From: Aciduliprofundum sp. MAR08-339
Lineage (GTDB): Archaea > Thermoplasmatota > Thermoplasmata > Thermoplasmatales > Aciduliprofundaceae
DNA: 64,000 nucleotides
Reading direction: 5' to 3'
NCBI RefSeq assembly: GCF_000327505.1
Contig: NC_019942.1
Coordinates: 310,001 to 374,000 of the forward strand
Shown: positions 38,903-50,320 of the stretch, in pieces
Numbering within the stretch: the first letter of the stretch is position 1
How the letters are laid out: each line of letters begins with the position of its first letter
Position numbers and translations under genes: made by a program
Notes under the pieces: generated by a model
Databases searched by the model: none
Seen by the model: the letters and a program-made list of their open reading frames with translations, nothing else
Told to the model about the DNA's origin: nothing

Positions 38903-39008
38903 GCCGGGGTGGCTCAGCCTGGTGGAGCGTCGGACTCATAGGGTATTTAATCTCCACCTCCAAGCCTGAGAAATCCGAAGGTCCCGGGTTCAAACCCCGG
39001 CCCCGGCA
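38903..39008 (+). tRNA. Elongator tRNA-Met (CAT) with a 32-nt intron
   Basis: The acceptor arms GCCGGGG (38903-38909) and CCCCGGC (39001-39007) pair fully, with A as discriminator; CCA is not encoded. The anticodon stem is TCGGA/TCCGA with loop CTCATAA. An intron at 38941-38972 sits after A37, the canonical place. CTCA in the exon pairs with TGAG at the intron end, forming the 4-bp helix of a bulge-helix-bulge cut by the archaeal splicing endonuclease. The first pair is G-C and no run of three GC pairs marks the anticodon stem as initiator, so I call it elongator. Confidence 0.93.
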
Positions 39009-42563: not shown

Positions 42564-42595
42564 CCTTTTAAAAGGAGCCATCAGCCCGATCGGGC
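42564..42595. promoter_or_regulatory. Two adjacent perfect 12-bp palindromes
   Basis: CCTTTTAAAAGG (42564-42575) and GCCCGATCGGGC (42584-42595) are each fully self-complementary and lie 8 nt apart, directly before the paired coiled-coil genes. The first overlaps the ribosome site and could also be a box A. The second looks like an operator. The plus-strand pyrophosphatase gene starts 102 nt away on the other side. Confidence 0.5.
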
Positions 42596-42696
42596 GATTG
42601 TGGTGGGCCCCATCACCTAGTTTCACCAATAAATTATGGTATAAATAATTAACCCAAAAACGTGAAAATAAAATACGATGAGAGCATTGAGAGCCC

Positions 42697-43919: not shown

Positions 43920-45032
43920 ATGAAAGAAAGAATTTTTGCAATTTTCCTGCTGCTGATCCTGATGCTCTCCTTAGTTACCGATGCTGGGGCTTCGTCCCCT
44001 GGGCATGGATACCTCTGGTCCCTCAACATTGAAAAGGATCTAAAAGATGAAAATTTCACTGGAGTGGCGAGGGGAACAAGGGTTATGGGCCTATACCTGG
44101 AGCATCCAAAGATGCAGGGGGATATGTACAACTGCTCATTCTCCGGGATACTTTATTCAAACACCTACCTGAACGGAAAATTGAACATGGTTCGGTTATC
44201 ACAAAATATGGTATGGAAAAATTTAATCGTTCAAAGATGGATAAATTACGAGGGATACTTTCTCCTTGTCAGATACAATACAACGCACAACGGCAAAACT
44301 CAGAATTTTTACGGGATAAAGGCAATTGGCATACGCATTTACACAAAGCAACCTGAGAGGGCCCGCGGCGAGATTATTTATACCATGCCCATCGCAGGTA
44401 GAGTTGTAGAGAGAAATGACTATTCCTTGAAGTACGATATATATCTGGGGATAAACTACTCAAAGCCCGTTCCATACATACCCGTTGGGCAGGATGAGAA
44501 CGTGAGTTATTATACCAACGCAAATTTCTATGGAAATATAGTTGCAGGCGGTGTTGGGTATTCGAAAATTAACAATATAACCTCAAACTTGAATAGGACC
44601 ATAAGTAAAAAAATATCCGGGAGCGTCCAGATGAAGGTTCAGATGGAGACAAGGGATAATATCATAAGAAGGTCCGGAATAATAGAACTCCTTCCCATGG
44701 AGATTGGAATGATGAGCGCAGGCATTATCTATCACCCTAATGATACATTCTACGGTGCAATACTCTTTGCAACAATGCTCCAAGATAAGGGCATAATGGA
44801 TAACGGTTCATATAAAAAAATAACCCTCTCAAAATACACGTTCGGAATGAGAGAGTATCCATCCAAGAGTGTGTCCAGGGAGGAAATCCTGAATTTGAGG
44901 GAAATAGGCCCTGAAAGAGGGAATTTGAACACCTTTGAAATTTATATCGCCACAGGCATACCTCTTTTCCTATCCCTATTGCTCATAGCATCCGGGTTCA
45001 AGGCCAGGAGGGATCATAGAGGGACCACATAG
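43920..45032 (+). CDS. Secreted, C-terminally anchored protein of unknown function
   Basis: The 370-residue protein has a cleavable-looking signal peptide (ERIFAIFLLLILMLSLVTDAGA), a beta-rich outer part with many N-glycosylation sites (NFTG, NCSF, NTTHN, NYSK, NLNRT) and a C-terminal membrane helix (IATGIPLFLSLLLIASGF) followed by a basic stop (KARRDHRG). No domain is recognised. GGTGGTGTGA precedes the ATG. It converges with the PIN-ATPase gene, overlapping by 19 nt. Confidence 0.65.
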   Translation: MKERIFAIFLLLILMLSLVTDAGASSPGHGYLWSLNIEKDLKDENFTGVARGTRVMGLYLEHPKMQGDMYNCSFSGILYSNTYLNGKLNMVRLSQNMVWKNLIVQRWINYEGYFLLVRYNTTHNGKTQNFYGIKAIGIRIYTKQPERARGEIIYTMPIAGRVVERNDYSLKYDIYLGINYSKPVPYIPVGQDENVSYYTNANFYGNIVAGGVGYSKINNITSNLNRTISKKISGSVQMKVQMETRDNIIRRSGIIELLPMEIGMMSAGIIYHPNDTFYGAILFATMLQDKGIMDNGSYKKITLSKYTFGMREYPSKSVSREEILNLREIGPERGNLNTFEIYIATGIPLFLSLLLIASGFKARRDHRGTT

Positions 45033-46807: not shown

Positions 46808-46883
46808 ATATTTGAAAAGTTGTGCTATTATTTAAACCATTTCTAAGAAAATAATTTATATCTGCGGGAACATCACGGGGAGA

Positions 46884-48467
46884 ATGCAAAGATCCGTTGT
46901 TATCCTAGCTTTGCTCCTGCTTCTCTCGACGCCCCTGGCCCAGGCCCATAACGTTTCTGTAGATGCAAAGATAAAAGATAGGTACAACGGAACAATAGAG
47001 ATCGTGGAGTACTTAGATGAGAACACGAAGAAAAAATATGATCTGGATTCCTCGGGAAACTTGAGTGGTATTGAACTGAGCAACCTCTTGAAGGATAATC
47101 TTCTGAAACTAAACCTCACACCTGCCGGAGATTACTATTACCTCGTAGGAAACCTGACTCTGGACGGCAGACACCCCCTGGCCAATGTTCATAAAATAGT
47201 GGTGAACTACTCAAAACCAATGCCCGTAAACGGAACATCCAAGGTGATCACGAGCATAACCTTCCACTTCTACCTTAACGGAACAAGCGACCATAAATTT
47301 GTTTTGAAACTGCCCTACTGCCAGGGATACTTCAAAATGAGCCTGCCCAAAAACGATACTGTTCTGAAAAGCAATCTTATTGATGCCCATATAAGGAACA
47401 ACATTATTTCCGGGAAATTCAAGGATAGTGTAATTATTGAATTCAGAGAAATGAAATATTTCTGGATGGGAATATTTGCAAATTCCCTGGTAGTTATTGG
47501 CGTTGTGATTTTCATCCTGGCTGCATACAAGTTCAGGGGTGGAAGGAGCAAGGGCATAAAGCTCCTGATAAGAAGCACGCTTAGAAATATGGTATCTCTT
47601 TTCATAGTTCTCACCATACTTTTTTACATCCTCTGGGTAGCTGGTCCGCCCCTATCGGTTAGGGTTGGAGGTATATCAACCATAGTTATGAGATTCCAAA
47701 TCATACAATACTACCATCTCGATCGCCCGTGGTACGATCAGTACCTAAACTGGTGGCACCTTCTACTAACTGGAGGGATAACCAAGGGTGTTGAATGGGG
47801 ACTGAAGGGTCTATCCCTCCAAAAGGCCCTTGTGATATCACTTAGCATATTCATTCTCACGGCCCTCTTCTCCTACCTGATTTCAATATATTTGGCAGTG
47901 AGGAAAAAGGGTTCGAGAAGTTTGGATCTCTACGCTGCTCTGTTTCTGGCCCTTTACTCCATACCAACCTTTTATGCAACCTACCAGTTCCTTCACCTTT
48001 TTGAGAATTACCCTCTGATCTACACCACCCTGGTTGCGCCCAGGGGAGGGATTGAGGAGTTCTTCCAGATTCTCTTCGCATCCTCCATCCTCACCCTGCT
48101 CACACTCGCGAGGCCCTATCTGATAGCAAGAGCACTTGCAGTAAAGGAGTACAGGGAGCCCTATGTGAACACATTCAGGGCAGTGGGATTCAATCCAAAG
48201 AAGATAAGAAAATTTGTTAGAAGAAGCACAGAGATTCCAACAATTACCGACTCAGTGCTGAATTTCGGGTGGGTTCTCACCGCACAGGTGTTTCTTGAGG
48301 TCATATTCAAGATCAAGGGAATGGGGTATCTTCTGTTCAAGGGCACTGTCAACGGAAATCCATTTCAACTTCAAATTTCAGTTATTTACTTTTCCCTAGT
48401 TATGATTGCAGCATCAATATTCTCAGACATCGTCATCTACTATCTCGATCCGAGGGTGAGAAGATGA
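46884..48467 (+). CDS. Dpp/Opp-type ABC permease (DppB-like) with fused EF-hand-containing outer domain
   Basis: A signal peptide (SVVILALLLLLSTPLAQA) leads into a ~165-residue outer domain with a canonical EF-hand loop at 53-64 (DLDSSGNLSGIE: Asp1, Asp3, Ser5, Asn7, Ser9, Glu12). An extra membrane helix (~195-215) follows, then a DppB-like permease core from ~225: TLRNMVSLFIVLTILFYIL, and the ATPase-coupling loop FRAVGFNPKKIRKFVRR before LNFGWVLTAQVFLEVIF. So the usual N-terminus is preceded by its own soluble domain. It overlaps the DppC-like gene by 4 nt. No binding protein or ATPase is adjacent. The substrate is unknown. Confidence 0.82.
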   Translation: MQRSVVILALLLLLSTPLAQAHNVSVDAKIKDRYNGTIEIVEYLDENTKKKYDLDSSGNLSGIELSNLLKDNLLKLNLTPAGDYYYLVGNLTLDGRHPLANVHKIVVNYSKPMPVNGTSKVITSITFHFYLNGTSDHKFVLKLPYCQGYFKMSLPKNDTVLKSNLIDAHIRNNIISGKFKDSVIIEFREMKYFWMGIFANSLVVIGVVIFILAAYKFRGGRSKGIKLLIRSTLRNMVSLFIVLTILFYILWVAGPPLSVRVGGISTIVMRFQIIQYYHLDRPWYDQYLNWWHLLLTGGITKGVEWGLKGLSLQKALVISLSIFILTALFSYLISIYLAVRKKGSRSLDLYAALFLALYSIPTFYATYQFLHLFENYPLIYTTLVAPRGGIEEFFQILFASSILTLLTLARPYLIARALAVKEYREPYVNTFRAVGFNPKKIRKFVRRSTEIPTITDSVLNFGWVLTAQVFLEVIFKIKGMGYLLFKGTVNGNPFQLQISVIYFSLVMIAASIFSDIVIYYLDPRVRR

Positions 48468-50320
48468 GGAGGAAAGAATTAAAAATGAGCAGAACGGGTA
48501 AGATCGCCCTTGGAATACTCACAGTTTACATAATAATTGCACTTGTGGTACCCGCCTTACCGCTTCGCAATCCAACGGGATTCCACGCACCACCCCAGGA
48601 CATATTTGTACCACAGATAGTTGGTCAATTCAACTTCTCGGTGCCCATAGACAACTTCGCGGTATACGGATACGACATATTTGCAGTGAGTAACAATGGA
48701 ATTTTCATACATTACGATATGATTCAGCACAAAACAGTGAAAACCTTTAACATCAATTCTTCCCATATCTCGGGGATAAAAATACTCCGTGCAGGAGCAT
48801 ACGGAATGCCCATCTTTCACACGGAGAGTGCAGTTTACCTATACTCACCAACGCAGGAAAGATTGTACAGAATGGATGTGAGGAACACCTACGCCATTTA
48901 CCCAATTCAGATTCCATTCTCACAGTACACGGGATTCATCGCGGTGAACTCCACGGGAGTGTACGCCTATTCATACAGCCCATACACAGATGAAAGACCA
49001 TCATTCATGTGGAATTTCTCGCTTGAAAAAAATATTCTTGGGATACATTATTCTTACACAAATTTCTACATATCCACTCCAGATCGGTTGATAGCCCTCA
49101 ACGACCAAGGAAGGATGATTTGGAGCATTAATGGAAATTTCACTTCAAACCCCATATACATACCAGTTTATGGAAACAACATAATATACGTGGCATCGGG
49201 AACAAGTATAATGGGAATTTTCATGACCAACGGAAGTTATGCCACAAACATAAGCATGGCAGTAAAGATAACACACCTTCACTATTACGGACAATCCCTA
49301 TACGCCTACTCTCCACAGGGCATAGTTGGAAAGGTTAACACCCTGAGCAATAGGGGTTTTCTGTGGAAAATAGGCAATATAAAGGAGTACTCACTCTCAT
49401 CCTCCGTGGATGGCATGGGGGCAATTCTAAAAGATGGAAGGTTAATATTTGTTCTTACCGGGGACGGGACTGTGCAATGGGGCACTAAGGGAAATTTTAC
49501 AAAAATAGCACTTGGAGAGCAGGACCTGGTACCATACCTATTTGCATTGCTGAACAACGAAAAATCCATCGTGCAGTACAGTTATTCTGGAAAACTGATA
49601 ACACCACTTCCTCCGAGCAAAAAGTATCTACTGGGCACAGACTCAGCCGGAAGGGACGTGCTTTCCCAGTTACTCTGGGGATTCAGAAATGAGATTTACA
49701 TAGCATTTGTGAGTGGATTCGCTGTCCTGATTCTGGGAACACTCTGGGGACTCACAGCGGGTTATTTCTCCGGGCTCCCTGACGATCTGCTTCTTCTTCT
49801 ATCAGACTCTTTCCTGTTCATACCTGCAATAGGATACGCTGCACTTATGATTTACCTTTTCGGGATACAGCATCACATAATGGCCACAATCACAGCCTCC
49901 ATACTCGCCCTGTCTCCCCTTGAGGCCAGGGCAGTGAGAAACTATACCAAGGTGATAAAGGAAAAACCATTTGTGGAAAGTGCCAAGGTTTCAGGAGCCG
50001 GATTCTGGAGAATAATGTTTAAACACATACTCCCTGAAATAAAGGGAATCTCCATGGTCTACGCATTGAGCGCAACAACAATGGCACTTTTGCTGGAAGT
50101 GGGCATATCGTTTTTGGGATTTGGAAACTACGCTATACCCACATGGGGCTGGATGATAACCAACGCCTACTTCACAGGATACCTAGATAAATGGTGGCTT
50201 GTAGCACCACCCCTGATTGCCCTATGGCTCCTGGTGTACTCCCTCTATCTGCTATCCCAAGAGATGTACACCACCGAGTACGTTAGATCCATAGAGAGCA
50301 GAACACTAGATGAAGAATGA
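48464..50320 (+). CDS. Dpp/Opp-type ABC permease (DppC-like) with inserted beta-propeller-like domain
   Basis: After TM1 (KIALGILTVYIIIALVVPAL) there is a ~340-residue outer domain (~40-385) of short repeated strands such as DRLIALNDQGRMIWSINGN, which resembles PQQ/WD-type propeller blades, with many glycosylation sites. Then the DppC hallmark LLGTDSAGRDVLSQLLWG (~389) and the permease core follow, with coupling loop SAKVSGAGFWRIMFKHILPE. Typical DppC has only a short loop here. At 618 residues it is twice the normal size. A second ATG at 48485 is possible. It works with the DppB-like partner. Confidence 0.82.
   Translation: MRRKELKMSRTGKIALGILTVYIIIALVVPALPLRNPTGFHAPPQDIFVPQIVGQFNFSVPIDNFAVYGYDIFAVSNNGIFIHYDMIQHKTVKTFNINSSHISGIKILRAGAYGMPIFHTESAVYLYSPTQERLYRMDVRNTYAIYPIQIPFSQYTGFIAVNSTGVYAYSYSPYTDERPSFMWNFSLEKNILGIHYSYTNFYISTPDRLIALNDQGRMIWSINGNFTSNPIYIPVYGNNIIYVASGTSIMGIFMTNGSYATNISMAVKITHLHYYGQSLYAYSPQGIVGKVNTLSNRGFLWKIGNIKEYSLSSSVDGMGAILKDGRLIFVLTGDGTVQWGTKGNFTKIALGEQDLVPYLFALLNNEKSIVQYSYSGKLITPLPPSKKYLLGTDSAGRDVLSQLLWGFRNEIYIAFVSGFAVLILGTLWGLTAGYFSGLPDDLLLLLSDSFLFIPAIGYAALMIYLFGIQHHIMATITASILALSPLEARAVRNYTKVIKEKPFVESAKVSGAGFWRIMFKHILPEIKGISMVYALSATTMALLLEVGISFLGFGNYAIPTWGWMITNAYFTGYLDKWWLVAPPLIALWLLVYSLYLLSQEMYTTEYVRSIESRTLDEE

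Follow-up and report, generated by a model that had tools for sequence, protein, structure and literature searches.

The window analysed here is a stretch of 64,000 nucleotides from the heat-loving archaeon Aciduliprofundum sp. MAR08-339, whose genome (1,437,090 bp) is a single contig; the genome counts given below rest on family and protein searches. It carries two intact open reading frames that overlap by 4 bp and encode a DppB-like and a DppC-like permease (Table 1). The gene upstream of this pair encodes a divergent PIN/ATPase/KH protein, and the gene that follows it is lysS. No genes for a substrate-binding protein (SBP) or for ATPases were found beside the pair at this locus, in agreement with the preliminary description, according to which neither follows it. 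The TATA-like sequence TTTATATC, as read from the letters, suggests that the pair may have its own promoter. Related loci in the named collection come from Aciduliprofundum and DHVE2-group archaea.

Other features of the window were noted in passing. A fluoride riboswitch (RF01734, 45.6 bits; window 42565-42626, minus strand) lies directly before a 119-aa coiled-coil-like ORF, after which come a 132-aa ORF, an MFS gene and a CDF-like gene; an inorganic pyrophosphatase gene lies divergently on its other side. A tRNA of 106 bases (38903-39008, plus strand) was reported by Rfam and not by ARAGORN in bacterial mode, and possibly contains an intron. A 370-aa protein encoded at 43920-45032 (plus strand) has a signal peptide-like start and a C-terminal hydrophobic stretch and gave no Pfam or NCBIfam match.

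Table 1. Features of the permease pair, in window coordinates.
Feature	Position	Strand	Layout or basis
TATA-like sequence TTTATATC	46855..46862	+	22 bp before the DppB-like start codon; sequence reading
DppB-like permease, 527 aa	46884..48467	+	signal peptide 1-22, outer EF-hand/beta-sandwich domain ~23-192, extra TM 195-213, DppB core ~225-527
DppB-like outer domain, residues 23-192 (~170 residues)	46950..47459	+	AlphaFold2 model; narrow spread across the class
EF-hand calcium-binding-type loop DLDSSGNLSGIE, residues 53-64	47040..47075	+	orthologue conservation; calbindin profile match
Extra TM helix, residues 195-213	47466..47522	+	hydropathy; helix in AlphaFold2 model
DppB coupling-helix (EAA) region, around residues 429-440	48168..48203	+	alignments
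DppC-like permease, 618 aa	48464..50320	+	TM1 14-32, propeller ~46-382, DppC core ~385-600
Eight-bladed, BamB-like beta-propeller insert, residues ~46-382 (~340 residues)	48599..49609	+	fold model, Foldseek and junction motifs

Both permease cores match PF00528 in Pfam (E 3e-17 for the DppB-like and 1.7e-14 for the DppC-like protein), and their nearest solved structures are DppB/OppB and DppC/OppC, respectively, of E. coli and M. tuberculosis. The DppB-like protein had been described as carrying a signal peptide, an EF-hand-containing domain and an extra helix, and all three were borne out. Hydropathy placed hydrophobic segments at residues 4-22 (the signal peptide, AQA-H), 195-213 (the extra helix) and 236-254 (canonical DppB TM1), with a positively charged linker between the latter two. 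AlphaFold2 modelled residues 23-222 as a helix-loop-helix, a beta-sandwich and a TM helix (pLDDT 80, pTM 0.69), and a Foldseek search of the PDB returned no meaningful match to the fold of the outer domain. The EF-hand loop comprises 12 residues between two helices, with ligands at positions 1, 3, 5, 9 and 12 and glycine at position 6. Its pattern, D-x-[DN]-x-[DSN]-G-x-[LIV]-x3-[ED], occurs at the same place in 6/6 orthologues, whereas the outer domain taken as a whole is only moderately conserved, and the pattern does not occur a second time in the ~20,500 residues of window ORFs. A profile of the outer domain matched the calbindin EF-hand (E 1e-9). The pattern search found one loop per DppB-like protein among the orthologues and no paired EF-hands. 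The outer domain may be of a calcium-binding kind.

The propeller-like domain of about 340 residues that had been placed between TM1 and the core of the DppC-like protein was likewise recovered. Residues 38-390, folded alone, gave an all-beta model of ~33 strands (pLDDT 84.8, pTM 0.83), in which residues ~46-382 are predicted to be an independent domain; the preliminary description had proposed residues 40-385. Foldseek matched the model to BamB and to designed eight-bladed propellers (E ~1e-12 and TM ~0.7 for these matches together, E 6e-13 and TM 0.69 for BamB), and weak PQQ_2/BamB matches in Pfam were obtained for 4/7 orthologues. The window insert has the fold of BamB/PQQ-type eight-bladed propellers in common with them at ~12% identity; unlike BamB, it sits within a permease, between TM1 (AP..D) and the core (PLPP...GTD), and has no BAM complex.

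The two outer domains differ in how far they extend beyond the pair, so that the idea that they are special to it stood for one and fell for the other. The EF-hand domain of DppB was found in 4/300 genomes of the class, all 4 within the organism's own family. Full-length orthologues of the window DppC were confined to the same family in a search of the class, but the DppC propeller as such is shared by many DppC proteins of the class. Among the best 146 other DppC matches in the class, ranked by similarity to the window query and hence not an unbiased rate, 69 lie in open frames of at least 690 aa; beyond the class, some few genomes elsewhere in the phylum also encode large DppC proteins. The large proteins share with the window DppC both the insert site and the AP..D and PLPP motifs at its junctions. 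PQQ/BamB matches were obtained for 12 and Kelch matches for 3 of the 23 large proteins examined (best E 1e-19 and 1e-32, respectively), which suggests that one type of propeller was swapped for another at an unchanged insert site. A whole-propeller profile comparison between the window and sister inserts matched the junctions alone; a larger alignment matched a 115-column C-terminal stretch with an E value of 1e-9 that rests partly on the junction. In a tree of DppC cores, from which four very long branches were removed, the window DppC groups weakly with the propeller clade (support 78/75) on a long stem branch. Alignment A5 (L018, L056-L090) has PQQ/BamB- or Kelch-type propellers at one same site in large DppC proteins.

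In most loci read, the large DppC genes have DppD and DppF genes after them. A large SBP gene (~950-1640 aa, or its visible part) lies just upstream in 6/8 loci outside the family with the upstream flank read (L085, L087, L090, L091, L093 and L095); no such gene was seen in L086 or L094, and the contig of L092 is too short. Because the propeller inserts sit in ATPase-bearing operons, mostly with an SBP upstream, the propeller does not stand in for the SBP. The organism's own propeller-type operon, with B, C, D and F genes at 147-152 kb of the chromosome, and the systems of other Thermoplasmata (L085, L087, L090, L091, L093-L095) have the insert site, the junction motifs and a propeller-type domain in common with the window pair. 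Unlike the pair, these systems have DppD/DppF in the operon and mostly a giant SBP just upstream, their inserts are bigger (473-852 aa), and their DppB proteins have no EF-hand domain in front. In the organism's own family, the large SBP is encoded away from the propeller operon. The giant SBP of the host genome (1429 aa; G000:C1:235613-239899, that is L019 1611-5900, at 236-240 kb) lies apart from the presumed BCDF operon and consists of an SBP_bac_5 domain, Ig-like repeats, a C-terminal coiled coil, a TM anchor and an acidic tail.

A search for homologous fused permeases found, besides the widespread propeller-bearing DppC, the pair itself conserved as a two-gene unit in 9/18 genomes of the family. 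Wherever flanks could be read in these 9 carrier genomes, no peptide-transporter ATPase gene lies beside the pair. Identity among orthologues is 63-78% in the DppC core and 48-71% in the DppB core, and the EAA coupling regions are present in both subunits and well conserved. The pair occurs in 9/10 genomes with an Aciduliprofundum-type propeller-operon DppC versus 0/8 others (Fisher p 4e-4, with kinship ignored). In two closely related genomes, a giant SBP gene lies three genes from the pair, and genus g2 has a second giant SBP, one of the two being near the pair. In a sister genus (L083 10750-12233; L101 11870-13353), two KaiC/RadA-like ATPase genes were read after the pair.

Three complete Dpp/Opp permease and ATPase gene sets lie elsewhere in the host genome, at ~150 kb, ~550 kb and ~1180 kb. 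All six oligo_HPY ATPases of the genome fall within these three operons, and a protein and family search for orphan DppD/DppF, which the preliminary description had proposed as a check, found none; other ABC ATPases are also encoded. In seven better-assembled carriers, the number of DppC genes exceeds that of oligo_HPY ATPase pairs by exactly one (4/3 in the host G000, 5/4 in G013, 4/3 in G300 and G301, 2/1 in G302, 7/6 in G153 and 6/5 in G252, one item of this count being a partial hit); the fragmentary drafts G306 and G307 were left out. The two numbers balance at 1/1 in the seven pair-less genomes in which both were found. By this count the ATPase pairs are all accounted for, with none to spare for the window pair.

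In E. coli Dpp, the scoop region of DppB engages the SBP. The corresponding region of the window DppB, between TM1 and TM2, is of near-canonical length, with the positions of the two charged E. coli tip residues, E41 and R42, in or next to a gap. Lys243 of E. coli DppB forms a salt bridge to DppD (PMC12136057). The window DppB has Val434 at this position, and the valine is invariant in all orthologues aligned; the other three DppB proteins of the genome have Lys or Arg there. Judged from these alignments, the pair probably still engages an SBP, since the scoop region is kept in length, whereas docking to DppD must differ. In the coupling regions, the window DppC is identical to the 150-kb, 550-kb and 1180-kb systems at 17/39, 17/39 and 11/39 positions, and the window DppB at 13/41, 9/41 and 12/41; these identities single out no one ATPase pair. 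Compared with E. coli DppABCDF and with Dpp and Opp of M. tuberculosis (PDB 8z1v, 8wd9, 8j5q), the window pair has in common both permease cores, the EAA regions and a DppB scoop region of near-normal length. It differs in adding an outer domain and a TM helix to DppB and a propeller to DppC, in having no linked SBP or ATPases, and in the replacement of Lys243 by Val.

The explanation that we favour, and to which we would give an even chance, is that the pair serves as a satellite of the propeller-type Dpp system: having no ATPases of its own, it would be energised in trans by those of that system, and its outer domains would dock or tether the binding protein. In this reading the two genes would supply the channel of a type I (Dpp/Opp-type) peptide importer, with transport presumably directed inward, and that importer would have lost, or never possessed, ATPase and SBP genes of its own. 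By way of its coupling helices, this channel would borrow DppD and DppF from the 147-152 kb propeller operon. Outside, the propeller of DppC and the EF-hand domain of DppB would together make a platform for a membrane-anchored, Ig-stalked SBP or another surface partner, and calcium would stabilise the DppB outer domain. In favour of this reading are the conservation of a two-gene unit that has no flanking ATPase, the surplus of one DppC and the co-occurrence with the propeller operon. The conserved EAA regions, the insert site and junctions common to the sister DppC proteins and the profile match over the C-terminal stretch point the same way, as do the large SBP that sister systems usually have, the membrane-anchored giant SBP of the host genome, the SBP gene near the pair in two genomes and the ATPases found in G302. 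A precedent is MsmK of streptococci, an ATPase shared in trans by importers (PMC4519317); MsmK serves bacterial carbohydrate importers, whereas for the archaeal pair we infer such sharing. Val434, the coupling identities that favour no one ATPase and the weak clade support count against the satellite reading.

Three other explanations seem unlikely to a similar degree. According to the first, the propeller, the EF-hand domain or both bind the ligand themselves and pass it to the channel, which works without an SBP on shared ATPases. Propellers can bind ligands, no SBP gene lies nearby, and the genome has three family-5 SBPs for four permease pairs. The proposal of the preliminary description that the permeases catch their ligand by themselves was nevertheless not supported: same-site propellers stand in ATPase-bearing operons, and most of the loci read have an SBP gene immediately before them; the scoop region of DppB is kept at near-canonical length; and genus g2 encodes that second giant SBP, with one of the two near the pair. 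We consider less likely still an elaboration in which the channel's own propeller and calcium-dependent outer domain collect the cargo with no SBP at all, while the ATPases of the sister transporter drive the channel; if true, such a type I importer would have no SBP and no motor dedicated to it.

It is also doubtful that the pair has given up transport to act as a sensor or regulator, detecting a ligand or calcium outside the cell and adjusting the activity of the sister transporter, for instance through competition for its ATPases or SBP. Such a role would fit the invariable loss of the lysine that bridges to DppD, the lack of ATPases of its own, the strict co-occurrence with the sister operon and the added outer domains, but the channel core is conserved as expected of a working channel, and no cytoplasmic signalling domain is present. 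Nor do we think it probable that the pair is an independent importer driven by the ATPases of one of the Opp operons (at 550 kb or 1180 kb) or by an ABC ATPase that has no oligo_HPY domain. The genome does offer three complete ATPase pairs as well as further ABC ATPases, and the DppC coupling region is as similar to the 550-kb as to the 150-kb system; however, the occurrence of the pair follows the propeller operon, and in G302 (79% complete), which has the pair, the propeller operon supplies the sole DppD/F genes found. That the pair is a decaying or non-functional paralogue, as the missing ATPase and SBP genes might suggest, is very improbable: many genomes have both ORFs intact and overlapping, with motifs conserved and an identity of 40-62%.

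The usual picture of a type I peptide importer is that of a compact channel whose outer loops are short and whose binding protein is separate. In the open-licence papers searched, we found nothing on archaeal DppC propellers, EF-hand permeases or peptide uptake by Aciduliprofundum, and no description of a propeller-bearing DppC or of an ATPase-less pair with an EF-hand domain. In this archaeal class a beta-propeller has been put into DppC, in most cases next to a giant binding protein, and a single lineage has in addition a permease pair with an EF-hand domain and no ATPases. If confirmed, this would reveal the way in which a receptor anchored at the cell surface is linked to the importer, and would make archaeal peptide uptake a clear case in which to test the sharing of ATPases.
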